A stretch of 64,000 nucleotides of DNA from Nitrosomonas sp. Nm84 (GCF_003201565.1 NZ_QJJP01000002.1:124001-188000); one strand, 5' to 3'; shown: positions 5,078 to 59,333, numbered from the stretch's first letter. Numbers and translations are program-made. The notes: a model not told the origin generated them from the letters alone.

Positions 5078-7897
5078 ATGGAATCCATAAAAATACGCGG
5101 GGCGCGCACCCACAATCTGAAAAACATCCAGCTCGATCTGCCGCGTAACAAGCTCGTTGTCATTACCGGGCTATCAGGATCGGGCAAATCCTCACTGGCA
5201 TTTGATACACTCTATGCGGAAGGTCAGCGTCGCTATGTGGAATCACTTTCAGCTTATGCGAGACAGTTTCTTCAACTCATGGAAAAACCCGATGTGGATC
5301 TGATTGAAGGGCTTTCACCTGCAATTGCCATCGAACAAAAAGCAACCTCGCATAACCCGCGTTCGACTGTGGGCACGGTGACTGAAATTCATGATTATCT
5401 GCGTTTGCTATTTGCCCGGGTTGGTGATCCGCACTGCCCCGAACACAATATTATCCTGACCGCACAAAGCGTTTCGCAAATGGTCGATCATGTGCTGCAA
5501 CTTCCACTCGACACGCGATTGATGATTCTTTCACCGTTGATCGTGGAACGCAAAGGCGAGCAGGTTGAGTTATTTGATGAACTACGCGCGCAAGGTTTTA
5601 TCCGCTTGCGCATTGATGGGGAAGTGTATGAAATTGATGCAATGCCCAAGTTGCAGAAAACCAAGAAACATACGATTGAGGTTGTCATTGATCGCTTGAA
5701 GGTTGCTCCAGATGCCAAGCAACGGCTTGCCGAATCATTCGAGGTAGCATTGCGCCATTCCGATGGACGTGCGCTAGCAGTTGAAATGGATACTGGCCAG
5801 GAACACCTTTTTTCCGCCAAATTCAGTTGTCCCATATGTAGTTATTCGTTGTCCGAACTAGAACCCAGATTATTTTCATTCAATAATCCATTGGGTGCCT
5901 GCCAAAAGTGTGATGGCTTGGGACAAATTACCTTTTTCGATCCAGCGCGAGTAGTCGCTTTTCCACATCTGTCACTGGCCGCAGGAGCGGTAAAAAATTG
6001 GGATAGACGCAATCAATTTTACTTCCAATTATTAACAAGCCTTTCTAAACATTATGATTTTGACTTGGAAACGTCATTTGAGAATCTGGATGACTCTATT
6101 CAGAACATCGTTCTGCATGGTTCTGGCAAAGAAAAAATACATTTTTCCTATTTAACGGAAGGGGGGAAAAAGCACCAGGAGACACATGCTTTTGAAGGAA
6201 TCATTCCCAATCTGACAAGACGTTATAAGGAAACAGAGTCACAGACTGTACGTGAAGAGTTGGCAAAATATCTCAATGCACAAACCTGCCCGGAATGCCA
6301 GGGTACGCGTTTATGCCAGGCTGCGCGTCATGTGCATGTTGCCGGACGGGCGATTTTTGAAATTAGCGCATTCCCATTGAAAACGGCCAAACTATTTTTT
6401 GACCAAATCGAATTATCTGGCCATAAGCAATCGATTGCCGAGCGGATTATCAAGGAAATTTCCAGTCGTTTGCAATTTCTCAACAATGTCGGATTGGATT
6501 ACTTATCGCTGGACCGTTCGGCGGATACGCTGTCTGGCGGTGAATCCCAACGTATCCGCCTTGCCAGTCAAATCGGTTCAGGCTTGACCGGTGTCATGTA
6601 CGTTCTGGATGAACCTTCCATTGGCTTGCATCAACGTGATAATGGTCGCCTGCTGGATACGCTTAAAAATCTGCGCGATCTCGGCAATAGCGTCATTGTG
6701 GTCGAACATGATCAAGATGCCATACAAATTGCGGATTATGTGGTGGATATGGGACCTGGCGCTGGAGAGCACGGTGGTTTTGTTGTTGCTCAAGGTGATC
6801 CGCACGCTATTCAGGGAAATAACGATTCTCTGACCGGCAAATATTTATCGGGGAAATTATCGATCAAAATACCGGAGCAACGTCATGAGCCTATAAAAGA
6901 TCGCATACTGCGAATTGATGGTGCGTCCGGTAATAATCTCAAAAACGTTACGCTGAACCTCCCGGTGGGTTTATTTGTGTGCGTAACAGGCGTTTCTGGA
7001 TCCGGCAAGTCGACGCTCATCAATGAAACACTGCATCGCGCAGTAGCTCGACACCTTTATGCTAGCAATGCCGAACCCGCACCCTATCAACACATTGAAG
7101 GTCTGGCTTTTTTCGATAAAGTCATCAATATGGACCAAAGTCCTATCGGACGCACACCGCGTTCCAATCCTGCAACTTACACCGGGCTATTTACACCCAT
7201 TCGGGAATTATTTGCCGGTGTACCGCAAGCGCGCGAACGCGGTTATGCGCCTGGTCGGTTTTCCTTCAATGTCAAAGGCGGGCGATGCGAAGCGTGTCAG
7301 GGCGATGGCGTGATTAAGGTGGAAATGCATTTTCTACCGGATATCTATGTTACCTGCGATGTATGCCATGGCCGGCGTTATAATCGTGAAACTCTGGAGA
7401 TTCAATATAAAGGCAAGAATATCAATGAAGTGCTGCAGATGACTGTGGAAAATGCACTTGAATTCTTCAGTGCAGTACCGGCCGTTGCACGTAAATTGCA
7501 AACACTTTTGGAAGTAGGGCTTGGCTATATTACGTTGGGACAATCTGCTACGACGCTTTCCGGCGGTGAAGCGCAGCGGGTAAAGTTATCGCTGGAGCTT
7601 TCCAAGCGTGACACGGGGCGCACGCTGTATATTCTGGATGAACCCACCACGGGTCTGCATTTTCAGGATATTGATCTACTGCTGAAAGTGTTACACAGAC
7701 TGCGGGATCATGGTAATACCGTGGTAGTGATTGAGCATAATCTGGATGTCATCAAAACTGCCGATTGGATTATTGATTTGGGACCGGAAGGCGGCGACGG
7801 CGGCGGTTGTATCATCGCAGAAGGCGCGCCTGAAACGATCGCAGATAATAACAACAGTTTCACCGGTTATTATCTGCGGCCCATGCTCACAAAATGA
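5078..7897 (+). CDS. uvrA: Excinuclease ABC subunit A
   Basis: Damage-recognition ATPase of nucleotide excision repair; it loads UvrB onto lesions. The 939-residue protein has two ABC modules. Walker A motifs are GLSGSGKSS (residue 31) and GVSGSGKST (about 637). Signature motifs are LSGGESQR (about 485) and LSGGEAQR (about 826). Zinc-binding cysteine pairs occur in both halves (CPIC with CQKC, and CEAC with CDVC). The length matches E. coli UvrA (940). It is divergent from the MFS-ssb pair with a 66-base gap in which I see no convincing LexA box. The stop overlaps the next gene's start (ATGA). Confidence 0.98.
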
Positions 7898-9165
7898 ATC
7901 CACGCAACTGTTTGCTGGAAAGTTTCTCAGTTGCAGTTAAAGCAGCAGATCCACTGCATATCGTACCGCAACATCTGCCCGATCCTCCGAGAGGCCGCAC
8001 GTTCGTTGTCGGTGCTGGCAAAGCATCTGCAGCTATGGCGCTGGCGATTGAGAATTCCTGGCCTGCCAATGCGCAGCTGAATGGCTTCGTTGTCACTCGC
8101 TATGGGCATGCGCTCCCTACGCATAAAATTAGAATAATCGAAGCCGGACACCCCATTCCTGACGAGAATGGAGAACAAGCATCGAGAGAAATTTTAGCTG
8201 CCGTCAAAGCGTTAGGACCTGAAGATTTATTGCTGTGCGTGTTCAGTGGCGGAGGGTCCAGCTTGCTTTCCCTGCCAATCGATGGTGTTTCATTACGGGA
8301 ACTTAAAGAAGTTACACGGCAACTGTTACGGTGTGGTGCCAGTATTCAGGAAATCAACACCGTCCGCAAACACTTATCGGCTATCCAGGGAGGTAGACTG
8401 GCTGCAGCTTGCAAGGCTCCCATAATGGCGTTAATTATTTCCGATGTGACCGGAGATGCAGCAACCCATATTGCCTCTGGACCTTGTGCGCCCGATCCGA
8501 CCAGCTTTTCTGATGCGCTGACCGTACTTGATCGCTACCATTTGGATGTGACGCCAGCAGTCAGGCAGGTTTTATTGACAGGAGTGGAACGCGCGGTCGA
8601 TGAAACACCCAAACCCGGCGCTTCCGTCTTTACCCGTGTTGAAAACAGAATTATTGCCAATGCTCATCAATCACTGATGGCAGCGGCGGACTATTTCCAG
8701 AGTCTCAACATTGCCACCTTGATACTCGGCGACACAGTAACCGGGGAATCCCGGGAAATTGCCAAAGGCTATGCAGCGCTTGCCAAAGAAATCCGCTTAC
8801 ACCCGCAATTGTTAAGGGCACCCATTGTGTTGTTATCGGGTGGTGAAACGACAGTCACTATCCGGGGCAATGGACGTGGAGGTCGTAATTCAGAGTTTTT
8901 ATTGTCACTGCTGATTGAGCTTGACGGTCTGGAGAAGATTTATGCGCTTGCATGTGATACCGATGGGATAGACGGCACAGAGAATAGTGCCGGAGCACTT
9001 TTGACACCCGATTCATTCATTCGTGCCAAGGCGCTTGGATTGAATGCTGCCGCATTTTTAACCAACAATGATGCTTATACATTTTTCCGGCACTTGAATG
9101 ATCTAGTGGTGACTGGACCGACCTATACCAATGTCAATGATTATCGCGCTATTCTTATTCTTTAA
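7894..9165 (+). CDS. Glycerate kinase, GckA/TtuD (MOFRL) type
   Basis: Predicted glycerate 2-kinase, phosphorylating D-glycerate to 2-phosphoglycerate, for example in glycolate salvage or the serine pathway. The 423 residues show the family hallmarks: a glycine-rich segment [28 protein letters not shown], the segment [15 protein letters not shown], and the C-terminal MOFRL domain ([19 protein letters not shown]). The ATG overlaps the uvrA stop by four bases, so translation is probably coupled, although no functional link to repair is evident. In an autotroph, removal of photorespiratory 2-phosphoglycolate products is a reasonable role; that is inference. Confidence 0.92.
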
Positions 9166-20353: not shown

Positions 20354-20839
20354 TTGGACGAAAATATTAATCAAATCACCGGATATTTTGAAACTGTACC
20401 GTTATGGCCATTTGTTTTGTTTGGCTTTTTGGGGCTGGTGGCTGTATTTGTTGAAATTCTTAATCGCAAACGCCGCGCCAATGCAATTGATAATTTCCGC
20501 TACACCATTGAAACAGAATTGGAGCTTCTGTACCCGGTCCATAAAGGCTGGCCCAGAAATATCAATACTTACCTGTGCTCTCGTCTACCCGAAATGCAGC
20601 AAAACTTTGAGGTTTTGCGCGTATTCATTCCACAGGATCGCCTGCTGAGTTACAACACGGATTGGAATAATTTTTGTGATTTCTGTCGGAATATCACTGA
20701 TGAGAAGTGCGCCGTTGCTGAACAACCTCCAGCATCTGATCATGTTGCGGCTACCAAGCAATCCACAAATAAGGAACCGGATCCCAAAGAAACTTTTCAT
20801 CGATTAGTATCGGATTTGCTAAAACATACTAACTTATAA
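20354..20839 (+). CDS. Hypothetical single-pass membrane protein
   Basis: 161 residues starting at a TTG (MDENINQITGYFETVP), with a GAGACG element a few bases upstream. One transmembrane helix (LWPFVLFGFLGLVAVFVEIL, about residues 17-36) is followed by a basic RKRRAN stop-transfer and a soluble domain with RLPEMQQNFEVLRVFIP and a C-x2-C pattern (FCDFC). The C-terminal 45 residues are low complexity. No family is recognised. It precedes the lipid island in the same direction by 128 bases; membership is possible but unproven. Confidence 0.6.
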   Translation: MDENINQITGYFETVPLWPFVLFGFLGLVAVFVEILNRKRRANAIDNFRYTIETELELLYPVHKGWPRNINTYLCSRLPEMQQNFEVLRVFIPQDRLLSYNTDWNNFCDFCRNITDEKCAVAEQPPASDHVAATKQSTNKEPDPKETFHRLVSDLLKHTNL

Positions 20840-20967: not shown

Positions 20968-22119
20968 ATGAATAAACACGATAAACCGGGCAATTCCAAA
21001 GTAACGGTGCGTCCGGTCATGTCTTATCGTGATATGGGAAAATTCATTGACGTACCTTGGCATGTTTATGCCAATGATCCGCTGTGGGTGCCGCCTTTAC
21101 GCTTGGAGCGGCGTTTCCACTTCTCGCGTTTCAATCCTTTTTTTAAGCATGGCGAATGGCAAGCCTGGGTAGCCTTTCAAAATGGTCAAGCGGTTGGACG
21201 CATCAGTGCGCAGATCGATTCCTTGCATCAAGAACGCTATGGTACAGACAGCGGTCATTTTGGCCTGTTCGAATGCATCGACGACGCAGAAGTATGTGGC
21301 GCGCTGATGCTGAACGCAGAAGCATGGCTGGCATCCCGGGAAATCCGCCGTGTCAGCGGGCCATTCAATCTCTCGATCAATCAGGAGTGCGGTATTCTGG
21401 TCGATGGATTCGACACGCCACCGGTTATCATGATGCCCCATTCACCGCGCTGGTATGGACGCTTGTTGGAAGAACAAGGATATCAGCCGGTAAAAGATTT
21501 GCTGGCTTATAAAGTCAGAGTCGATTTTGAAGTACCGCGTGTCATGCAGATAATGATCAATCGATTTTCTCCAAAAATAAAATTACGTACACTGAATCGC
21601 GATCAATTCGATGCGGAAATGGAAATGTTGCGGGATATTTTTAATGATGCCTGGTCTGAAAATTGGGGATTCATTCCTTTCACGCGTGAAGAATTTGCCG
21701 AACTGGGCAGCAGTCTGCGCTTGTTGTTGCCCGATGAATTCATTCAAGTCGCCGAAGTCGATGGCAAGCCCTCGGCATTCATGGTGGGATTGCCTAATCT
21801 TAATGAAATTTTAACTGAATTAAACGGCAGCCTGTTTCCGCTTGGCTGGCTAAAACTGGTCAACAGAGTCAGAAATCATCAGATCCGCACAGGTCGCATA
21901 CCGCTGATGGGCGTTCGTAAACAATTTCACAATACGCCATTGGGATTGGCATTGGCTTGCCTGGTAATTGATGCGCCACGGCAAGCGGGAATCGCGCGTG
22001 GCATCCAGGAGGTCGAAATGTCATGGATATTGGAAGATAACGTTGCTATGCGCAACATTCTCGACAGCATTGGCAGTGAGCAATACAAACGTTATCGTAT
22101 TTATGGAAAAACATTGTGA
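20968..22119 (+). CDS. GNAT-superfamily acyltransferase-like protein (YghO-like)
   Basis: A 383-residue protein whose N-terminal segment (VPWHVYANDPLWVPPLRLER, then FSRFNPFF) and C-terminal GNAT-like half (QAGIARGIQEVEMSWILEDN) match the large GNAT-related family that includes YghO. From memory, a Caulobacter ceramide synthase is a GNAT-like member of similar size, so N-acylation of a long-chain base is one candidate activity; the substrate is not shown by the sequence. It is the first gene of the lipid island, and its TGA overlaps the next gene's GTG by four bases. Confidence 0.75.
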   Translation: MNKHDKPGNSKVTVRPVMSYRDMGKFIDVPWHVYANDPLWVPPLRLERRFHFSRFNPFFKHGEWQAWVAFQNGQAVGRISAQIDSLHQERYGTDSGHFGLFECIDDAEVCGALMLNAEAWLASREIRRVSGPFNLSINQECGILVDGFDTPPVIMMPHSPRWYGRLLEEQGYQPVKDLLAYKVRVDFEVPRVMQIMINRFSPKIKLRTLNRDQFDAEMEMLRDIFNDAWSENWGFIPFTREEFAELGSSLRLLLPDEFIQVAEVDGKPSAFMVGLPNLNEILTELNGSLFPLGWLKLVNRVRNHQIRTGRIPLMGVRKQFHNTPLGLALACLVIDAPRQAGIARGIQEVEMSWILEDNVAMRNILDSIGSEQYKRYRIYGKTL

Positions 22120-22928
22120 ACGCTGAATCTTATCCGGCATCGCAGCGTTTCGCCGCACTGGTACTGGCCGCTGACCGCACCAGTAAAGATCCCATCACGC
22201 AACACACCGGCGCAGCCTGCAAGGCTTTTGCACCCGTTGGCGGCGTTCCGATGGTTATCCGCGTTGTAGATGCGCTGGCAGCTTGCGATTTGATCACCTC
22301 GATTACGCTCTGCGGCCCTTCCGAATCTTTGCTTCCACATTGTCCGGAACTAGAACACCGCATCGCATCTGGACAAGTGACCTGGTTGCCGAATCTGGAC
22401 TCGCCTAGCCGTAGCGCTGAAAGCGGCTTGAGTCATGTGCCGAGCGAGACGCCGGTATTATTGACCACCGCCGACCATGCCCTGCTCACACCCGACATCG
22501 TGCGCAATTTTTTACAAAGCTCCCTGGCAACGCAGTGCGACGCCGCTGTCGGTGCGATCAGGCAACAAACGATCGCCGCCGCATTTCCTGGCTCCAGGCG
22601 CACCGTCATACGGTTGCGCGACGGCGGATTCTGCGGCTGTAATTTGTTCATGTTCAATCCTCATGGAAGGGCGCTGGTCGGATTCTGGCAGCAAGCTGAA
22701 GATTTGCGCAAACGTCCCTGGCGCTTGATCGGACAAGTGCTTGGATTCAAAATGGTGCTGTCTTATTTGTTTGGGCTGCTTACACTGCAACAAGCATTAG
22801 CCGCCGTATCGGAGAAATCAGGGGTAAACATACAGGCCGTCGTGCTTGATGATCCACGAGCCGGTGTAGATGTTGATAAAGTAGAAGATTTAGTGCTTGC
22901 TGAGTCGATACTCAAAACCGATATATGA
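22116..22928 (+). CDS. MobA-like nucleotidyltransferase
   Basis: 270 residues with an NTP-transferase (GT-A-like) fold: N-terminal strand and loop FAALVLAADRTSKDPIT, then CKAFAPVGGVPMVIRVVDAL, and the metal-site region LLTTADHALL. The classical GxGTRM signature is altered (AADRTSK), although the lysine of KxFxPxxGxPM is kept. It could activate a phospho-alcohol or sugar phosphate with CTP for head-group transfer, as the cytidylyltransferase half of inositol-phosphate enzymes does; this is inference. GTG start, with four-base overlaps to the preceding (GTGA) and following (ATGA) genes. Confidence 0.75.
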   Translation: MNAESYPASQRFAALVLAADRTSKDPITQHTGAACKAFAPVGGVPMVIRVVDALAACDLITSITLCGPSESLLPHCPELEHRIASGQVTWLPNLDSPSRSAESGLSHVPSETPVLLTTADHALLTPDIVRNFLQSSLATQCDAAVGAIRQQTIAAAFPGSRRTVIRLRDGGFCGCNLFMFNPHGRALVGFWQQAEDLRKRPWRLIGQVLGFKMVLSYLFGLLTLQQALAAVSEKSGVNIQAVVLDDPRAGVDVDKVEDLVLAESILKTDI

Positions 22929-24004
22929 AATTAATTGAGCGGTACATCGCGCGTGAAATATCGCTGCCCTTCATGGTGGTCATCCTGATTTTGATCGGAT
23001 TATTTGCCAGCTTTAGCAGCGCCCGGCTTTTGGCGGGTGCGGTCACAGAAACACTGGGCATCGCCGCACTGCTCAAACTGGTATTTCTAAAAACGCTGAT
23101 TGCACTGGAAGTACTCATTCCTATTGCACTTTATATTTCTGTCATTATTGGTCTGGGCAGACTCAACAAAGATCAAGAATTGAATGTAATCCGTTCTGTC
23201 GGCGTCAGTGGTACGCGCATTGTCCTTACCGTGCTGACGGTAGCCATACCGGTTGGTATCGCCAGCGGCATGTTGTCATCGTATGTGCGGCCTTGGGCTT
23301 ATGCGGAAAGTTACATATTGGACGCGCAGGCTGAAGCGGAATTAAATACCAACCGTTTTCAGGCTGGGCGTTTTTATGGTAGTGAAAAGACCGGCAGGGT
23401 TGTCTATGTGCGCAGCAAAAGTGATGTCGATCAGGGAATGCAGAATATTTTTCACTATATCAAGAAGCCGGACAGCAGTGAAATTGTCATTGCCAGACAA
23501 GCTCGTCAGATTCAGCCAACGGCGGAAGAACTGAGGCCGCATATTCAATTATCCGAGGGTGTGATATATCAATTAACCAATGCAGCAAGCATTGATGAAG
23601 TCATTCAGTTTGAAAACATGATTTATTTTATTGATAATGACTTTGTTCTGAATTACCGGCGTAAGGCGGCCGCCACGAGAACGCTGTGGGAATCCGATCA
23701 ACCGCGTGATATTGCGGAATTGCAATGGCGCATTTCCCGCCCGCTTGCTACCATTCTGCTGGCTTTAATCGCGGTGACGTTTATTCGCACCACACCGCGG
23801 CATGATAAAACCGATCGAACGTATCTGATCGCAGCACTTATTTTCGCTGCCTATTATAATTTGACTGGGTTGGCTAAAACTTGGGTTGAACAGGGTGTTG
23901 TGGGCAGCATGCCTGGCGTTTGGTGGTTATATCTGCTGATGTTTGTCGTACTGGGTATCTATGCATTGATATCAAAACGCAGACGATTCCCGCGTCCATC
24001 ATGA
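22925..24004 (+). CDS. lptF: LptF-type lipid export permease
   Basis: 359 residues with the LptF/YjgP architecture: three N-terminal helices, a periplasmic beta-jellyroll domain (about 120-260) and three C-terminal helices. The opening MKLIERYIAREISLPFMVV and the cytoplasmic coupling region LGRLNKDQELNVIRSVGVSG are typical. In the Lpt system LptF pairs with LptG and LptB to lift lipopolysaccharide from the inner membrane. Here it overlaps by ATGA both a nucleotidyltransferase gene and lptG and sits inside a lipid-synthesis cluster. It may therefore be a paralogue for another lipid, or simply the housekeeping copy in unusual company. Confidence 0.9.
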   Translation: MKLIERYIAREISLPFMVVILILIGLFASFSSARLLAGAVTETLGIAALLKLVFLKTLIALEVLIPIALYISVIIGLGRLNKDQELNVIRSVGVSGTRIVLTVLTVAIPVGIASGMLSSYVRPWAYAESYILDAQAEAELNTNRFQAGRFYGSEKTGRVVYVRSKSDVDQGMQNIFHYIKKPDSSEIVIARQARQIQPTAEELRPHIQLSEGVIYQLTNAASIDEVIQFENMIYFIDNDFVLNYRRKAAATRTLWESDQPRDIAELQWRISRPLATILLALIAVTFIRTTPRHDKTDRTYLIAALIFAAYYNLTGLAKTWVEQGVVGSMPGVWWLYLLMFVVLGIYALISKRRRFPRPS

Positions 24005-25062
24005 TTATTTATCGCTATATTGCTTATCAGGTGGCGATCGGTTTCATGATTGCCACAGCGGTTTTGTTACCGTTATTCAGTTTCTTTGATTTATTGGATC
24101 AATTGGAGGATGTTGGAAAGGGCACCTACCGCGTCACAGATGCATTTCTATACACAGTCATGTTATTGCCGCGCAGATTTATCCAGATCGCGCCTTTCGT
24201 TGCTTTACTAGGTACAGTAGTTGCGCTTGGGAAACTAGCGGTTCATTCGGAATTGATCGCTTTACGGGTTGCCGGAATTTCACCTCTGCGTATCAGTCTC
24301 GCACCTTTAGGCGTTGGTATGCTGCTGCTGCTGGGGGTCGCCATCCTAGAGCAATTTGTTGCGCCTCAGTTGCAGCAAAAAGCGATTGCCAATCGGGCTG
24401 TCGCATTGCAGCTCAGTGCCGAATTAGGCAGGAATCTAGGAATCTGGACGCGCAATGAGCGCAGTATTCTGCGCATCGGCCAGATGATGCACGCCAAACA
24501 AGCGGCCGATATTGAAATCCTGCAACTGGATCAAGAAGGTTTTTTACTCACGCACACCCTGGCCCAATATGCAGACATCAAGGATGACGATAGGTGGGAA
24601 TTAAACAATGTAACCGTCAGAACATTTAAAGACGGCGAAATTTCAGCGACCCGTCACGCTTTCTTAAACTGGTCGTCGTTTCTGAATCCGGATGATATTC
24701 TAACCCTCACCAAACTACCCGAGAGCCTGTCACCGCTTGAATTGGTAAGGCATGTGGAATTCTTGCGCAGCACCGGGCAGGATATGGATTCGTATGCATT
24801 GGCGTTATGGCGTAAAGTAGGTAGTGCACTGATGACGATTGCAATGCTGCTATTATCGATTCCATTTGTATTTGGATCGATTCGCACCGGTTTGAGCAAT
24901 AAACTGGTGTTTGCTGCGTTGATCGGCATTGCTGTTTACCTGCTGGATCAAATTATTGCGAATACGGGTTTGATATTGCGTTTAAACCCCGCATTCATCG
25001 CACTGGTACCGGGTTTTGCCATGATCATTCTAGCAACTTTATGGTTACGCAGAACTTTTTAA
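24001..25062 (+). CDS. lptG: LptG-type lipid export permease
   Basis: 353 residues from the ATG at 24001, which overlaps the lptF stop as ATGA; the frame is open 27 codons further upstream inside lptF, without support. MIIYRYIAYQVAIGFMIATA is helix 1. LPRRFIQIAPFVALLGTVVA and the coupling segment HSELIALRVAGISPLRIS are characteristic of LptG. A periplasmic domain occupies about residues 120-260, and three helices end the protein. It forms the heterodimeric partner of the preceding LptF. The ATPase LptB and periplasmic LptC/A are not in this window. Confidence 0.9.
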   Translation: MIIYRYIAYQVAIGFMIATAVLLPLFSFFDLLDQLEDVGKGTYRVTDAFLYTVMLLPRRFIQIAPFVALLGTVVALGKLAVHSELIALRVAGISPLRISLAPLGVGMLLLLGVAILEQFVAPQLQQKAIANRAVALQLSAELGRNLGIWTRNERSILRIGQMMHAKQAADIEILQLDQEGFLLTHTLAQYADIKDDDRWELNNVTVRTFKDGEISATRHAFLNWSSFLNPDDILTLTKLPESLSPLELVRHVEFLRSTGQDMDSYALALWRKVGSALMTIAMLLLSIPFVFGSIRTGLSNKLVFAALIGIAVYLLDQIIANTGLILRLNPAFIALVPGFAMIILATLWLRRTF

Positions 25063-25165
25063 CACGAATGGGTTAGTGTAGTATCAATGCCTATATAATT
25101 GCGCAGTCTTGTTTTATCCATAACAGACCTTTCATAACTCAGACAAAACCCAATCACTACAATAC

Positions 25166-26404
25166 ATGTCGACTTCAACCTATATCTATATCTTCGGTGA
25201 AATTGAAACCAAAATTTGGGGATTAACCGGCCGCGAGCGTTTGCAGCGCATGTTGAAAGCGAGAGAACAAGTCATCCTGATTGAGGATGTTGAGAAGATT
25301 CCTTCCGGCGCTGTTGCATTATTTTTGAACGCCAATTTTCTGTTTGATGCCCGAGTACTCACCGCATTGCTCGGCATGGAGAAAAAAACAGCGTTATATA
25401 GCGACGAAAATTGTCCCGCCGCGATACGCACCGATGGTGATCAAGCACAGCAATTACTCAGGAATCTCAACAATAACAAGAGCCAGAATTATCGCTTTGT
25501 GTTGCTGACTATTCCGCGCATTGGCTTGAAAGATCTGCACATAGACTTTCAGCAGAATCTGAAAAAGAAGGACCCGCCTTACATCCTGCCTATCAGCGAA
25601 GAGAATCGTCCGCTACTGGAGCAAGAACTGTTTTCCGGATCGTATAAGGGTGTGACCGATCTGGTCACCAAGTGGATCTGGCCGGTGCCGGCATTCTGGG
25701 CGACACATTATTGCGTGCGGCAAGGCTGGCAACCCAATCACGTCACCTATCTCAGCGTCGTTTTGGCCGTGCTGGCGGGAGTCGCATTCTGGTTCGGATT
25801 CTTTGGTATCGGACTGCTCATGGGATGGTTTATGACCTTTCTCGACACTGTGGACGGGAAACTGGCGCGCGTCACTGTGACGTCAAGTCGATTCGGCGAT
25901 GTATTAGACCATGGGCTGGATATTATCCATCCGCCACTCTGGTATCTGGCTTGGGGAGTCGGTTTGACAAGTACGCTGACGCCCATTGCTGGCCTGGGAA
26001 TACTCATGTGGCTTATGCTCATCGGCTATGTCGGCGGACGTTTGTGCGAAGGCGTGTTCCAATTCTGGTTGGCACACTTTGATATGTTCATCTGGCACAA
26101 ATGGGACTCTTTCAATCGGCTCATCACCGCCCGGCGCAATCCGAATCTTTTGTTGCTGACATACGGATGGTTGACCGGTCAACCTGATTTCGGGCTTTTG
26201 CTGGTCGTTGCGTGGCATTTGATCTCTACCGGAATCCTGGTATGGCGTTTGATGACCGGCTGGAAAACCAAGCAAAAAGAAGGATCGCTGAAATCCTGGC
26301 TGCAAGATGTTGATCCGGTACGTGACCGGGAAATATGGGCGGTTAAAATATTTACGCGCGCCCCGATCAATCTCAAAAAGCCTTATCCGGTATCATCCAA
26401 TTAA
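25166..26404 (+). CDS. CDP-alcohol phosphotransferase with N-terminal nucleotidyltransferase-like domain
   Basis: 412 residues in two parts. Residues 1 to about 165 resemble a MobA-like nucleotidyltransferase domain but lack its glycine-rich signature. The rest is a CDP-alcohol phosphatidyltransferase with several membrane helices. Its signature is DTVDGKLAR (Asp227, Asp230) followed by GDVLDHGLD, supplying all expected metal-binding aspartates. The layout recalls the bifunctional inositol-phosphate cytidylyltransferase/DIPP synthase. It probably transfers a phospho-head group between a CDP-activated partner and an alcohol. It sits 103 bases after lptG and 16 before the kinase-Tam41 fusion. 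Confidence 0.85.
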   Translation: MSTSTYIYIFGEIETKIWGLTGRERLQRMLKAREQVILIEDVEKIPSGAVALFLNANFLFDARVLTALLGMEKKTALYSDENCPAAIRTDGDQAQQLLRNLNNNKSQNYRFVLLTIPRIGLKDLHIDFQQNLKKKDPPYILPISEENRPLLEQELFSGSYKGVTDLVTKWIWPVPAFWATHYCVRQGWQPNHVTYLSVVLAVLAGVAFWFGFFGIGLLMGWFMTFLDTVDGKLARVTVTSSRFGDVLDHGLDIIHPPLWYLAWGVGLTSTLTPIAGLGILMWLMLIGYVGGRLCEGVFQFWLAHFDMFIWHKWDSFNRLITARRNPNLLLLTYGWLTGQPDFGLLLVVAWHLISTGILVWRLMTGWKTKQKEGSLKSWLQDVDPVRDREIWAVKIFTRAPINLKKPYPVSSN

Positions 26405-26420
26405 TCGTTTATCACACCCA

Positions 26421-28403
26421 ATGACATTACAAACACGGATTGACCGCTTGAGAACAGGGACAGCTAAAGTTGGTTGCCTGTTCAACCCAATGGGAGGTCA
26501 GGCGCGCAAACATGAACCGGCCATCCGGCAGGCATTGAGCGAAATACCTGGCATCTTCGTCTGCGAGGCCATCGATGCGATCGCTTTCAAAAGTGCAATC
26601 GATCAATTGCTGCGAATGAAAATCGATTTACTGGTAATTGTCGCGGGAGATGGTACGACACACGCGATACTCGGCCATTTGTTCGCTGCATTGGCGCCAG
26701 CGAAATGGCCTGTGCTGATGGTCATACCGGGCGGTACCACCAATATGACGTCATTGGACTTGGGAATGCGCGGCAAGCCCGAACAAATCCTGCGCCGTTT
26801 ACGCGATTTCCTGTTACAGCCAATGGAACCCAGGCTGGTACAGCGTTCCGTCCTGCGTATCGAGCAGGCAGGAATGGGTGCAATCTATGGCATGTTCTTC
26901 GCCGTCGGATTGGTTGCGCGCGGTGTCAAATTCTCGCGCAGTCCAGTCAAGCAAATCGGAATCACCGGTGGCATTTTTACCTTCCTGATTATGCTGCGAT
27001 CTCTTGCGGGTATGATATTGGGTCGCCATCAAAGCGAATGGGCGCCGGTCACCATGGCCATGGCGCAAACCGATGGACGAATTTATCAAGGCACCTATCT
27101 GTTTGCGTTGGTCAGTGCATTGGATTGCCTGTTGCTAAACATCCGTCCATATTGGGGAAAAGAACCGGCACCATTGCATGTGACATTGGTCGATCAACAC
27201 CGCAAACGCTTGTGGCGCTCAATATGGCCGTTAATTTCAGGCGGTGGCGAAGTGCTGCAGGAAAAAGACGGTTACTATAGCCATAATACCCATTCCTTAA
27301 CGCTGCAGATGGATGATGAGTACATTGTCGACGGTGAATTATATCGATCTGCCAGTGCAAACAAGCCGTTACGAATTACCGCAACCAATCCTGTGACATT
27401 TTTAGTGCTGGGAGGCGCTGTTACTACTATGGCTCATACTAAAGTCACGTCCACCGAACAACTGCCCATCCGATTGCTCAGTGAAGTTGCTTGGGAAAGC
27501 AACAAAGAGACATCTCCTGATCTTGTTCCAGTGGTGGATTCACTCATCATGCGCTTCGGCGAGTCATTGGATGCCATAATTCTTTATGGTTCCTGTCTGC
27601 ATTCCGCGATCAGCCTGGATGAAGGTATCGTTGATCTGTATGTCATCGTGGATAGTTACCACAAGGCTTATTCCGTGCGCTATTTGGCCAATTTAAACGC
27701 TTGGCTGGCACCTAATGTTTTTTATATAGAAGTACCGCATCAGGGAAGAACGTTACGCGCCAAATACGCCGTCATTTCAACACACGACTTCAGGCGTGGT
27801 GCGCAGCACTGGTTTCATCCGTATATCTGGGCGCGTTTTGCGCAACCGTCGCGGTTGCTTTACTGCCGTGACGATGCTGTGCGGGAACACATCTATGCTT
27901 CGCTGGCGCACTCTGTTGTCACTTTTTTAAAATCGGGAGCCGCAGCACTCGAAGCAGGTATATTCGATGTGGAAGAAATCTGGACACGCTGTCTGATGCT
28001 CACCTATGCCGCCGAATTACGGGCAGAGCGGGAAACGCGCGCACGCCATCTGGCGCAGACCAACCTGGGCGCCTTTACCCGCCTGACAGAAGTGGCAACC
28101 CCTATGCTGCGAGGCATATTGGAGAAACAAGATAATGGAAAATACCGCTGCCTGACCGATCCAGCGACACAACGACGAACATTGTGGCGATGGCGTTTGC
28201 GCCGTTGGCAGGGAAGAATTTTGTCGATCCTGCGCTTATCCAAAGCCACGCTGACTTTCAACAATAGCGTCGAATATGCCGCCTGGAAAATTGAGCGGCA
28301 CACCGGTGTGCGCGTCGAAATTACCCCGATGTTGCGCCGTCACCCCATCCTATGGGGCTTGAAAGTAGCCTGGCGATTGTTACGACGTGGTGTGTTACGC
28401 TAA
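26421..28403 (+). CDS. Fusion of lipid kinase (DAGK domain) and Tam41-like CDP-lipid synthase domain
   Basis: 660 residues from the ATG at 26421; an in-frame ATG at 26307 lies inside the previous gene. Residues 1 to about 340 are a diacylglycerol/sphingosine-kinase catalytic domain: CLFNPMGGQARKH, AGDGTTHAILGHL (near residue 75) and IPGGTTNMTSLDLG (near 103). From about residue 365 a second domain has the nucleotidyltransferase pattern ILYGSCLHS...IVDLYVIVD, then KYAVISTHDF, YIWARFAQPSRLL and LMLTYAAELRAER. These follow the order of Tam41/TAMM41 phosphatidate cytidylyltransferase. The fusion could turn a neutral lipid into its phosphate and then a CDP-lipid in one polypeptide. The acceptor (diacylglycerol or ceramide) is unknown. 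Confidence 0.85.
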   Translation: MTLQTRIDRLRTGTAKVGCLFNPMGGQARKHEPAIRQALSEIPGIFVCEAIDAIAFKSAIDQLLRMKIDLLVIVAGDGTTHAILGHLFAALAPAKWPVLMVIPGGTTNMTSLDLGMRGKPEQILRRLRDFLLQPMEPRLVQRSVLRIEQAGMGAIYGMFFAVGLVARGVKFSRSPVKQIGITGGIFTFLIMLRSLAGMILGRHQSEWAPVTMAMAQTDGRIYQGTYLFALVSALDCLLLNIRPYWGKEPAPLHVTLVDQHRKRLWRSIWPLISGGGEVLQEKDGYYSHNTHSLTLQMDDEYIVDGELYRSASANKPLRITATNPVTFLVLGGAVTTMAHTKVTSTEQLPIRLLSEVAWESNKETSPDLVPVVDSLIMRFGESLDAIILYGSCLHSAISLDEGIVDLYVIVDSYHKAYSVRYLANLNAWLAPNVFYIEVPHQGRTLRAKYAVISTHDFRRGAQHWFHPYIWARFAQPSRLLYCRDDAVREHIYASLAHSVVTFLKSGAAALEAGIFDVEEIWTRCLMLTYAAELRAERETRARHLAQTNLGAFTRLTEVATPMLRGILEKQDNGKYRCLTDPATQRRTLWRWRLRRWQGRILSILRLSKATLTFNNSVEYAAWKIERHTGVRVEITPMLRRHPILWGLKVAWRLLRRGVLR

Positions 28404-28468
28404 ATCCGACCGCTTCGTAGCAGACAATAAAAATCAACAACCTGTAGACCATTTTAATGGAGAACAAC

Positions 28469-29116
28469 ATGAACACTCTGTCCCGTTTATTCATTCTTTC
28501 AATAGCGCTGGCGCTTACGGCCTGCACCACGATGTATCTCGAAGGCCTGGAGAAGATTGGCATTCCGAAGCGCGACGTGATGGTGTCGCGAGTTGAAAAA
28601 GCACGCGATACGCAGGAAGAAACCAAGGAGCAATTCAAATCCGCGCTGGAACAATTTACTGCCGCCACCAACTTCAGCGGCGGCGACCTGGAAGCTACCT
28701 ATAAACGACTCAACGACGAGTATGAAGCCAGCGTGAGCAAAGCCGACGAAGTCAAAACACGGATTGCGGACATAGAAAGTGTCTCCGAAGCATTATTCAC
28801 CGAATGGAAAACGGAAATTACGCAATACAGCAACGCATCGATGAAACAAAGTAGCCAGAAAAAACTCGATACCACGCAAGCGCATTACCGTCAATTAATC
28901 GCTTCGATGAAGCAAGCCGAAGCCAAAATCGAGCCGATCCTCACCGTGTTTCATGATCAGGTCATGTTCCTCAAACATAACCTCAATGCCCGCGCCATTG
29001 CTTCACTCAAAGGCGAATTGGGTAACATCAAATCCGACGTGTCGGCGCTGGTTGCTTCGATGGAAAAATCGATCAATGAGGCGAATGCATTTATCAGTAC
29101 GATGGAACAAAAGTGA
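28469..29116 (+). CDS. DUF2959 family lipoprotein
   Basis: 215 residues from the ATG at 28469, which has TGGAGA upstream; an in-frame ATG four codons earlier is less well placed. The signal peptide ends in the lipobox ALTAC, so this is a lipoprotein; residue +2 (Thr) does not suggest inner-membrane retention. The mature part is a long alpha-helical, coiled-coil-like protein opening YLEGLEKIGIPKRDVMVSRV, the DUF2959 hallmark. Function unknown. It lies 65 bases after the kinase-Tam41 gene and may belong to the lipid island. Confidence 0.85.
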   Translation: MNTLSRLFILSIALALTACTTMYLEGLEKIGIPKRDVMVSRVEKARDTQEETKEQFKSALEQFTAATNFSGGDLEATYKRLNDEYEASVSKADEVKTRIADIESVSEALFTEWKTEITQYSNASMKQSSQKKLDTTQAHYRQLIASMKQAEAKIEPILTVFHDQVMFLKHNLNARAIASLKGELGNIKSDVSALVASMEKSINEANAFISTMEQK

Positions 29117-54972: not shown

Positions 54973-56959
54973 TTAGAAGCGATAGCCCATTCTTAAACGT
55001 TCGGTTCTATCGGGTTGCAAAAAAATGTTTTGCCAGTTGGGAGCTGTGGTTGGATGCTGATAATTCTCGTCAAGTAGATTGCAGATTCTCAGCGATGCTT
55101 CAAGTCCCTTTATCCATCGAACATCGGTCATTAAATTAAGGTTAGAAAGAAAGTAGCTACCTATATTGGGGGCATCCACTGTTTTGTGCTTGCTGTAGTA
55201 TTGCAATTTGTAGTCGACACATAAGTTTTTCATCCGAGGTATCGGGATGGAGAAATTCAGTTCGCCAAGATGATAGGGAGAGTTGGGAAGATGAGAATGA
55301 TGTTGATCAGTATCTTGAATATCGAAGCTACCGCGCACGCGCGTTCCCCAGTCCCAGGTTTTATCCACTGACAATTCTGCTCCCTTGGCTATTATTCGAT
55401 GAAGTGCGTGTTGATGTATCAAGCTATTGATACCACCCGGGTAGGGTACTACTGAAAGAATGTGTTGCAAATCCCAATAATAAGTGGGTGCATGTACATT
55501 CGTATTGATCATCGGCTGATAGTCCGCTACCAGCCCGGCCGTATCCGCATTAACGTACAATGCCGAACTGACAACACCACTGGATGCGACACTACTGAAG
55601 TCACATCCATATGAATTCGGCGAGCGATGTGCACACCCATACAATGCCTTAAATGTTGTCTTCGGCATAGCCCGCCAGATCAACGCGCCGCGTGAACTTA
55701 ACCGGCTACCAATTCAGTTGTTGTAATCATAGCGCAGCCCAGCGTTGCAGACAACGTGTCAGAATACGCCATTCATCTTGCGCATGCACATTTATACGCA
55801 CTGATACACACGACAGCGCTATTGGTGACAATAAGGTCTTCATTGGTAGCCAAATTTTGGAAAGTTTGTTTGACACTTGTGCTGTTTTGCTATTCGACTC
55901 CCATCACCAACTGGTGATTATTGAGGGCTATTGAAAGTAGGCGTAATTCAGTGCCACGCCAACTGCCGGGGCCGGTGACTTTAAATTTCTCTCCGCCGAG
56001 AAGAAATGATTGCGAAGAATCATACTGCCCCAGAAACTCCCATCCTAATACACTCAGCATGTTATGAGCAAAACTTTTATTATATTGATGTTGTGTTTGC
56101 AAATGCAGATTGTTGGGTACTGTACGTGTTAGAGGATCGCTTAAGAATGAGGAAATAGGATCTTCTTTATGGCGATTGCCATAAATAAAATCAAATGACA
56201 GCGATTTATACAATCATCGCGCGAGTTCTCGTTTAACATCTTCGCTACTCAAATTATACGCTATGCCGGAAATTCCGGAGTTGCCATCATCAAAAAAGCG
56301 ATCAGCCCCGCGGGATCGTAAAACCGAAGAGGAAACCAACGCATCAGTGTCATTGCCAAGTTTTTCTCCATACTGAGATGCTCTCATATCACGCCCTCTG
56401 TTGCTTGAGGAACTGGAAAGCTCCGTACCGTTTATACCGAAACCATTGTATGTAATGACATTGACAACACTCATTATGGCATTCTGCTCGTAAACTACGA
56501 CCGGGCCCAAGGATAAACTTAATTCGTTCGGTCTGATCTGATCAATAGTTATATCGCTGATGCGGATCCCATTTACCAAAACCGGAATACGCGTGTTGAA
56601 ATTCCCCGGCAAACCAAATACCCTTCGCCCGTATACTCATAGCGATAATCATATGTGGTATGAACTTTCGGGAGACTGGTGAGTGCTTCATTAAGCGTGT
56701 GCCAACCATAAGTTCTGATATCCGCGCATGTAATCGCACTGACAGTTGCGGCAGCTTTTTGTTGATTTTGTTCATGTTTTGAAGCACCAATGATGCGGAT
56801 GTTCATCAATTGTTCCAGGCTCATGCGTTCCAGATTTTTTGCGGCATAGGCGAATTGCATGTGACTGAAAAGCAAATAAAACAGTAATCCTCTTGCAGGA
56901 GAATTTTCTTTAAATGAATTGACCTGAAAGAAATTGAACATGATGAACCGGTATGACAA
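54973..56959 (-). pseudogene. Broken TonB-dependent receptor, paralogue of the intact neighbour
   Basis: Pieces in at least three frames align from end to end with the intact receptor at 57330-59333: NLERMSLEQLMNIRIIGASK at the start, then a frameshift near 56600 within the plug region. A segment around the plug's GPGSAVYGQ motif is reduced. In-frame stops fall near 56214 and 55890, and further shifts lie between 55890 and 55683. The C-terminal part runs intact to ERLRMGYRF. Clearly non-functional. Confidence 0.88.
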
Positions 56960-57329: not shown

Positions 57330-59333
57330 CTAGAAACGATAATCCAACCTAAAACGTACAGTCCGACCAGCTTGAACAAAGCTATTTTGCCAGTTGGTGT
57401 CCGCGGCCGGATGCTGATAGTGCCCATTAAGCAGGTTGTAGAAGCTCAATGATGCCTCCAATCCTTTTACCCAGCGCACATCAGTCACTAGGTTCAGGTT
57501 GGAAAGAAAATAATCATCGGTATTCGTGCCGTTCAGTGTTTTACGTTTGCCGTAATATTGCAGTTCATAACCAGCTCGCAGGCCTGTCATCAGTGGTATG
57601 GGCATGGAAACATTCAGCTTACCCAGATGATAGGGTGAATTGGGAAGATGTGAGCTATGTTGTTCAGCATTCTGAATGCCATAACTACCACGTAGCCGTG
57701 CACCCCAGTTCCAAGTTTTATCAAACGATAACTCTGCTCCTCTGGCTAGCACCTTGTTGGATGCCTGTTGATACTGAGGGACTTCACTGATCGGATCCAT
57801 GCCTAACGTAATAATGTTATACATATCCCACGCATAAGCGGTAACGCGTACATTCATATTAGGTAACGGAAGATAATCTGCCACGAGTTCAGCCGTATCA
57901 ACTGTTTCACTGCGTAATCCCGGATTCGCAACTTGAGATACGCCGTCATTGAAGTCACGTTCATACGAATTGGGCGAACGGTGAGCACGACCATAAAGTG
58001 CCTTCAGTGTTGTTTTTGGAGTGGCCTGCCAGATCAACGCACCACGCGGACTTAATCGATTGCCAATCCATTTGTTATGGTCGTAACGTACCCCTGCCGT
58101 GGCCGACAAGGTATCGGTGATGCGCCATTCATCCTGGGCATATACACCCATGCGCACGACAGCCTCATGGATCGCTACATTCTCATCGGGATTGGCAGAA
58201 TTCTGGAAAGTCTGTTTGATGTTGGTGTTATTTTGATACTCAAACCCGAGCATGAGCTTATGATCGGTCAAAGCAGTGGACAGCAGGCGTAATTCAGCAC
58301 CGTGCCAGTTACTGGGGCCGGTAGTAAGCGTTTTCTCGCCGTTGTAGATAGTTGGCTGCTCGTAGCGATATTGACCGAGAAACGCTCGACCCAGTACATT
58401 GAGGGTATCGTTGGCAAAATTGTCGTTGTACTGGATCTGTGTGTTGAGACGACGATCGTTTATTGATGCACCACTCGCCAGCGGGTCAGAAAAGTACATG
58501 CCGGTAGGATCATCTTTACGTCGATCACCATAAATGAAGTCAAATGCAACGGGACCACGTGTTGCTCGCGCGAATAATTGTTTAACATTTTCTCCATCCA
58601 TACGGTGCGCCACACCTGAAATACCGGAGTTGCCATAATCGAAGAAACGATCTGTGCCACGGGATTGAAGACCTGAAACGGAAATTAACGCATCAATCCC
58701 ATTATCGAATTGCTTGCCCAAAGTAACACGTTCTTGCGGCATAACTTCAGCTGTTTGATAGGAAGCCGAAAGCTCGGCGCCGTTCACGCTAGAGCCATTG
58801 CGCGTAATGATGTTGACAACACCCAGCATGGCATTCTGGCCATACACGGCACTACCCGGTCCCGGTATAAATTCGATGCGTTCGATCAGATCGATATCGA
58901 GTGGAAAATCACGTCCTGTTGGTCCTTGATCATAAGTGGCATCGTTGATGCGATTGCCGTTGATGGTGATCAGTACGCGGGTATTGAAATCCCCCGGCAG
59001 ACCAAAACCGCGCATGCCAAGATGATCATATTGATGATCATAGGTGGAATGAATTCCTGGCAGACTGGCGAGCGCCTCATTCAGTGTGCGCCAACCGTAA
59101 GTTCTGATATCCTTGCGTGTGATGATGCTGACTGCTGCCGCGACTTGCTGTTGCTTCTGCTCATACTTTGAAGCGCCTATGATAGTAATACCCATCAGTT
59201 GCTCCAGGCTCAGTTGCTCCAGATTCTTGGTTGCAAGAACGGGTAACGATGACATGAAAAGCAAGCTAAACGGTAGTGCTTTTTTTACAGAAGAACTGAT
59301 ATTCAATGCGTTGAGCTTTTGTGGAATAAGCAC
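57330..59333 (-). CDS. TonB-dependent outer membrane receptor
   Basis: 667 residues with an intact plug domain (ITRKDIRTYGWRTLNEALAS, then RVLITINGNRINDATYDQGP and IEFIPGPGSAVYGQNAMLGV) and a 22-strand-type barrel ending RTVRFRLDYRF. The N-terminus carries a short pre-plug segment (KNLEQLSLEQLMGITIIGAS). I cannot point to a clear TonB box. The start is a GTG. The ligand is unknown; the family takes up iron complexes or vitamins. A YfiR gene precedes it on the same strand by about 190 bases. Confidence 0.9.
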   Translation of the reverse strand: MLIPQKLNALNISSSVKKALPFSLLFMSSLPVLATKNLEQLSLEQLMGITIIGASKYEQKQQQVAAAVSIITRKDIRTYGWRTLNEALASLPGIHSTYDHQYDHLGMRGFGLPGDFNTRVLITINGNRINDATYDQGPTGRDFPLDIDLIERIEFIPGPGSAVYGQNAMLGVVNIITRNGSSVNGAELSASYQTAEVMPQERVTLGKQFDNGIDALISVSGLQSRGTDRFFDYGNSGISGVAHRMDGENVKQLFARATRGPVAFDFIYGDRRKDDPTGMYFSDPLASGASINDRRLNTQIQYNDNFANDTLNVLGRAFLGQYRYEQPTIYNGEKTLTTGPSNWHGAELRLLSTALTDHKLMLGFEYQNNTNIKQTFQNSANPDENVAIHEAVVRMGVYAQDEWRITDTLSATAGVRYDHNKWIGNRLSPRGALIWQATPKTTLKALYGRAHRSPNSYERDFNDGVSQVANPGLRSETVDTAELVADYLPLPNMNVRVTAYAWDMYNIITLGMDPISEVPQYQQASNKVLARGAELSFDKTWNWGARLRGSYGIQNAEQHSSHLPNSPYHLGKLNVSMPIPLMTGLRAGYELQYYGKRKTLNGTNTDDYFLSNLNLVTDVRWVKGLEASLSFYNLLNGHYQHPAADTNWQNSFVQAGRTVRFRLDYRF

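Follow-up and report, generated by a model that had tools for sequence, protein, structure and literature searches.

Why would an ammonia oxidiser keep its LptF and LptG genes, known from the lipopolysaccharide (LPS) exporter, within a cluster of lipid-building genes? This question is raised by seven genes at positions 20968-29116 of a 64,000-nucleotide stretch of Nitrosomonas sp. Nm84 DNA (hereafter the window), which corresponds to C2:124001-188000 in a 3.47 Mb genome that is 99.99% complete. From gene content, conservation, gene losses, LptFG descent, folds and motifs, we infer that this island likely makes and exports a ceramide phospholipid, most likely ceramide phosphoglycerate (CPG) or its diphospho form CPG2, and that its LptFG pair, the only one of the genome, acts with LptB, LptC, LptA and LptD to deliver this lipid as a replacement for LPS. 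In Nitrosomonas and its relatives the sole LptFG sits among sphingolipid genes and the LPS genes tested are gone, so that a sphingolipid has probably replaced the usual outer coat.

A first-pass annotation of the window had described seven same-strand genes of named families at these positions, the first four linked by 4-base overlaps. All seven were found there on the + strand, and their start and stop coordinates bear out the 4-base overlaps between CerS (stop 22119) and the nucleotidyltransferase NTP (start 22116), NTP (stop 22928) and LptF (start 22925), and LptF (stop 24004) and the ATG of LptG (24001, a corrected start; overlap ATGA). The ATG at 26421 is most likely the start of the kinase-Tam41 fusion gene; it was preferred because the longer open reading frame from 26307 overruns the preceding gene. 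Promoter and terminator scans returned nothing beyond shuffled-sequence level. The Caulobacter counterparts listed below were assigned by family, gene order and literature, not by direct protein comparison.

20968-22119, + strand: CerS/YghO-type acyltransferase, putative ceramide synthase, counterpart of CC_1154 (49% identity to E. coli YghO across 97% of its length)
22116-22928, + strand: MobA/CofC-like nucleotidyltransferase (NTP), likely counterpart of CC_1153 (PF12804, E 1.8e-15)
22925-24004, + strand: LptF of the sphingolipid-cluster type by tree, the genome's only LptF (TIGR04407, 304 bits)
24001-25062, + strand: LptG of the sphingolipid-cluster type by tree, the genome's only LptG (TIGR04408, 306 bits)
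25166-26404, + strand: CDP-alcohol phosphotransferase with an N-terminal nucleotidyltransferase-like part, counterpart of CpgA/CC_1159 (PF01066, E 7e-8)
26421-28403, + strand: fusion of a kinase and a Tam41-like cytidylyltransferase (PF00781, E 4e-11; Tam41 fold)
about 26421-27413, + strand: ceramide-kinase-like DAGK domain of the fusion, CpgB/CC_1160 (PF00781)
about 27420-28403, + strand: Tam41-like cytidylyltransferase of the fusion, CpgC/CC_1161 (predicted fold, motif)
28457-29116, + strand: DUF2959 lipoprotein, last gene of the Nitrosomonas island (PF11172, E 1e-82)

A single LptFG pair of the sphingolipid type

The first-pass annotation expected a second lptFG pair, next to pepA, elsewhere in the genome. 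A PF03739 search recovered none: a single pair is present in this genome and in nearly all genomes of the genus. In a tree built from concatenated LptF and LptG sequences of 53 loci, the Nitrosomonadaceae pairs nest, with full support, among LptFG from the sphingolipid clusters of Escherichia, Pseudomonas, Azotobacter and Nitrospirales, the spt-linked pair of E. coli BL21 included. Outside this group lie the E. coli pair next to pepA and 18 LPS-type pairs from the order's other families. Separate LptF and LptG trees agree with the joined one, and a clade uniting Nitrosomonadaceae with betaproteobacterial LPS-type LptFG was rejected (p-AU 0.000282). As judged from these phylogenies, the lptFG pair is of the sphingolipid type by descent, but it is not a second version standing beside an LPS-type pair. 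The annotation had named a single lptFG pair with unconserved neighbours as the finding that would speak against its proposal; the pair is indeed single, but its neighbourhood is conserved.

Lysines 34, 40 and 41 of E. coli LptG were considered as a separator of LPS-type from sphingolipid-type proteins and rejected, since betaproteobacterial LPS-type LptG mostly carry other residues there; position 34 is Asp in all 18. At the position of E. coli LptF R212, Arg occurs in 15 of 18 betaproteobacterial LPS-type LptF and a hydrophobic residue in 11/11 Nitrosomonadaceae, and the position varies in other sphingolipid-linked LptF.

Loss of lipid A genes and retention of the Lpt bridge

The lack of lipid A genes, which the first-pass annotation did not foresee, accounts for the presence of one pair only. 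LpxC was found in none of the 61 genomes of the genus, and LpxB exceeded the cut-off in none of them, as compared with 37 of the order's 40 other families. Similarly, LpxC was missing from all 13 CerS-bearing Nitrosomonadaceae, several of them labelled Nitrosospira, whereas 24 of 26 other CerS-bearing genomes possess it. The two without a LpxC match are those of Ca. Litorirhabdus singularis (L140) and a Lysobacterales metagenome-assembled genome (L153); Litorirhabdus could be another LPS-free sphingolipid maker. The remainder of the bridge is retained, lptC-lptA-lptB in its canonical operon and lptD in the order lptD-surA-pdxA-ksgA, as in E. coli.

An ordinary LPS exporter relocated beside lipid genes, in a cluster devoid of transport meaning, would account for the fact that both proteins pass the NCBIfam cut-offs for LPS-export LptF and LptG, and for the presence of LptB, LptC and LptD. 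However, such an exporter would be left in a genus without LpxC or LpxB, its proteins group with sphingolipid-linked LptFG to the exclusion of betaproteobacterial LPS-type ones, and its linkage to CerS is conserved across phyla. We consider this explanation largely refuted and reject it as highly improbable. The balance of evidence favours instead a lineage-wide exchange of LPS for phosphosphingolipid in Nitrosomonadaceae, in which a sphingolipid-type LptFG would operate on ancestral LptB, LptC, LptA and LptD. Such an exporter would be a natural chimera whose cargo is new and which works without any LPS background. In the simplest history, a sphingolipid cluster with its own LptFG would have been gained first; lipid A synthesis and the LPS-type LptFG would then have disappeared, the bridge being kept.

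Ceramide synthesis

The window itself lacks a serine palmitoyltransferase gene, and the genome-wide search proposed in the first-pass annotation located one: Spt exceeds the NCBIfam cut-off (NF047599, 577 bits versus 500) and is encoded in aasR-cerR-acp-spt at C2:43099-47324 (locus L046), on the same contig as the island and 98 kb from it. Spt is present in 59 of the 61 genus genomes and, at the set threshold, in none of the 40 other families. The GNAT-like first gene of the island has no match in Pfam or NCBIfam; its E. coli relative YghO is a CerS-family acyltransferase needed for ceramide synthesis (PMC9386255). The closest named CerS loci are those of N. oligotropha (86%), N. ureae (84%) and N. 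eutropha Nm57 (64%); together with the clustering of the genus-level relatives into one group, this marks the organism as a Nitrosomonas. Compared with the annotated sphingolipid cluster of Pseudomonas plasmid pBYT5-2, identities are 49% for CerS, 43% for the MobA-like protein, 36% for LptF, 37% for LptG, 47% for the CDP-alcohol phosphotransferase, 33% for the kinase half and 38% for the Tam41 half.

The CDP-alcohol phosphotransferase motif D227-x2-D230-G231-x2-A234-R235-x8-G244-x3-D248-x3-D252 does not vary across 19 sequences. The Tam41 half matches Pfam below threshold (E 3e-4), but the five best structural matches of its model (pLDDT 85) are solved Tam41 structures (E 8e-9 to 3e-7), and its YGS and Asp motif is unvaried across 18 sequences. 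By homology, the fusion would supply both the kinase and the Tam41/CDP-diacylglycerol-synthase-like enzyme of the CPG/CPG2 pathway. The fusion was rejected as a defining trait: such joining recurs in part of Nitrosomonas and in one Nitrosospira, and many relatives encode the two enzymes in distinct genes.

A CpgD homologue, 52% identical to Pseudomonas CpgD, lies at C2:22081-22785 and recurs in 40 of 43 genus genomes. The ceramide-based lipid suggested in the first-pass annotation thus gains support from the Spt set and CpgD on the contig and from the same gene set in annotated sphingolipid clusters; it is well supported because the island corresponds to the known CPG/CPG2 pathway, which earlier work described in N. 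eutropha. Elsewhere, members of the DAGK and Tam41 families use glycerolipids as substrates, and the kinase might accordingly phosphorylate diacylglycerol for Tam41 to make CDP-diacylglycerol, yet the presence and co-conservation of CerS and Spt make such a glycerolipid product very unlikely.

Head group and transport

In published work, ceramide is the product of Spt, AasR, AcpR, CerR and CerS, CC_1160 acts as a ceramide kinase and CpgD makes CDP-glycerate (PMC12275187). By analogy, AasR, AcpR, Spt, CerR and CerS of Nitrosomonas would together build ceramide, which the kinase half of the fusion would convert to ceramide-1-phosphate and the Tam41-like half would activate with CTP to CDP-ceramide. 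CpgD would supply CDP-glycerate, and the CDP-alcohol phosphotransferase would use a CDP-activated substrate to install the phosphoglycerate head group. The predicted product is CPG, or CPG2 where the MobA-like nucleotidyltransferase is intact; in Caulobacter, the CDP-alcohol enzyme is required for the second phosphoglycerate only (PMC11324152, PMC12275187). LptFG, on LptB and with LptC, LptA and LptD, would then move the lipid to the outer membrane in place of LPS.

A ceramide phospholipid with some other head group is an alternative of modest probability. The CDP-alcohol phosphotransferase is weakly similar to inositol-phosphate synthases and the MobA-like enzyme is a putative nucleotidyltransferase without an assigned substrate, but the widespread CpgD homologue lies beside a phosphoglycerate mutase gene and Caulobacter CpgD is a CTP:phosphoglycerate cytidylyltransferase (PMC12275187). 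The adjacent mutase fits a phosphoglycerate head group because CpgD uses phosphoglycerate, although it may instead be a plain housekeeping enzyme. Both belong to a block of CpgD, HIT protein, fatty acid desaturase and phosphoglycerate mutase genes (C2:19761-22815; L181:5762-8816) that 15 of 16 relatives retain. The desaturase is reminiscent of the DesA-family enzyme that hydroxylates the acyl chain of ceramide (PMC11324152) and may act likewise. The HIT gene recurs in sphingolipid clusters of other phyla. A MOFRL/DUF4147 protein at 7894-9165 of the window, probably a glycerate 2-kinase, would give 2-phosphoglycerate, which CpgD prefers as a substrate in vitro, or may merely serve photorespiration.

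Downstream of spt, at 3-8 kb, lie hopanoid genes hpnH, hpnM-like and hpnN (C2:50349-55971; L046:14349-19971), making hopanoid and sphingolipid genes neighbours. The proximity of hpnM and hpnN and the retention of LpxK, which hints at some LPS-like glycolipid, would suit a scheme in which the island makes the sphingolipid while the cargo of LptFG is a different lipid or glycan carrier, or in which the sphingolipid takes an HpnN-like or MCE-type route. We regard this scheme as unlikely, given that CerS adjoins LptFG in Nitrosomonas, Nitrosospira, Pseudomonas, Azotobacter, Nitrospirales and Escherichia.

Several points weigh against sphingolipid export by LptFG in place of LPS. LpxK, of the lipid A 4'-kinase family, is encoded at C55:2546-3499 (L178:2534-3541), scores above the NCBIfam cut-off and is kept in 42/42 genus relatives searched as well as in this genome, its substrate being unexplained; in earlier work, too, lpxK was the sole such gene recovered from N. 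europaea, and from Nitrosospira multiformis it was lpxA (PMC3087551). The lipid A gene losses rest on LpxC and LpxB, with LpxA, LpxD and WaaA (and LptE) outside the search, and the canonical LptFG reference set comprises 18 betaproteobacteria and one E. coli pair. Finally, the head-group chemistry is proposed by homology, and the CpgC, CpgA and MobA-like steps are without an assay even in Caulobacter.

Conservation of the island

The comparison with related genomes called for in the first-pass annotation revealed conserved island neighbours. The order CerS-NTP-LptF-LptG-CDP-alcohol phosphotransferase-kinase-Tam41-DUF2959 is repeated in 19 sampled loci of the genus, the exceptions being one contig end and the NTP of the N. 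communis group; given this recurrence, the island is not a chance assembly. In the N. communis group, NTP is only a remnant in L060 and L116 and is frame-broken in L059, the other island genes being intact. The MobA-like gene was therefore rejected as essential, and its decay while the rest persists suggests a role in a late step that is optional. The island order is also kept in Nitrosospira (L113, L117, L118, L122), and gammaproteobacteria and Nitrospirales carry CerS, NTP, often CpgD, LptF, LptG, the CDP-alcohol phosphotransferase, the kinase and Tam41. No DUF2959 gene was detected beside the sampled Nitrosospira islands, and DUF2959 was accordingly rejected as a core component.

Relation to known systems

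The Caulobacter crescentus CPG2 locus (CC_1152-CC_1168) shares CerS, a CofC-like nucleotidyltransferase, LptF2, LptG2 and the CDP-alcohol phosphotransferase with Nitrosomonas, as well as ceramide kinase, a CDP-diacylglycerol-synthase-like enzyme, Spt, CerR, AcpR, AasR and CpgD (PMC11324152, PMC12275187). Caulobacter produces LPS as well and possesses a second version each of LptC, LptF and LptG, whereas Nitrosomonas has one lptFG, lacks lpxC and lpxB, carries a fused kinase-Tam41 gene and distributes its genes over three places on one contig. The LPS-type LptB2FGC-A-D exporter is built from the same protein families as the Nitrosomonas one, which keeps the lptCAB and lptD loci; in Nitrosomonas, LptFG nevertheless groups with sphingolipid-linked pairs, and those lipid A genes that were tested are absent. 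The known sphingolipids of Sphingomonas are glycosphingolipids rather than phosphosphingolipids. Like Nitrosomonas in the present proposal, Sphingomonas forms sphingolipid without LPS (PMC11324152).

The same gene set, in three regions, is described as an orthologue set of N. eutropha (PMC11324152 Fig 7; PMC9386255), and at the N. eutropha Nm57 locus (L129) the island genes follow in an identical order. Earlier papers have thus described the cluster, its role in ceramide formation and its occurrence in N. eutropha (PMC11324152, PMC9386255), and N. europaea has been reported to lack most lipid A genes (PMC3087551). The sole lptFG, the missing lipid A genes and the LptFG type go unremarked in the available parts of the two N. 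eutropha papers, and a limited literature search found no paper joining the sphingolipid cluster with lipid A gene loss. Within that search, what appears to be new is that the sphingolipid island houses the only LptFG, that this pair is of the sphingolipid type, and that lipid A genes are missing throughout the genus and in sampled Nitrosospira while the Lpt bridge is kept.

The route of bacterial sphingolipids to the outer membrane was stated as unknown in a 2024 report (PMC11324152), and where LPS, sphingolipid and two lptFG pairs occur in one organism the transport question is difficult to address separately. Because Nitrosomonas combines a single lptFG pair and a conserved island with the absence of lpxC and lpxB, lptFG depletion would test sphingolipid transport alone. 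If true, our proposal would explain the lipid-A-free outer membrane of a major group of ammonia oxidisers and would imply that the Lpt motor is exchangeable while the bridge is kept.

Two further features of the window were recorded. A small protein encoded directly upstream of CerS (20354-20839, + strand) has no Pfam or NCBIfam match, and its position is conserved in Nitrosomonas. Fragments resembling a broken second TonB-dependent receptor gene (54973-56959) lie beside an intact copy at 57330-59333, the only one of the two checked against Pfam.

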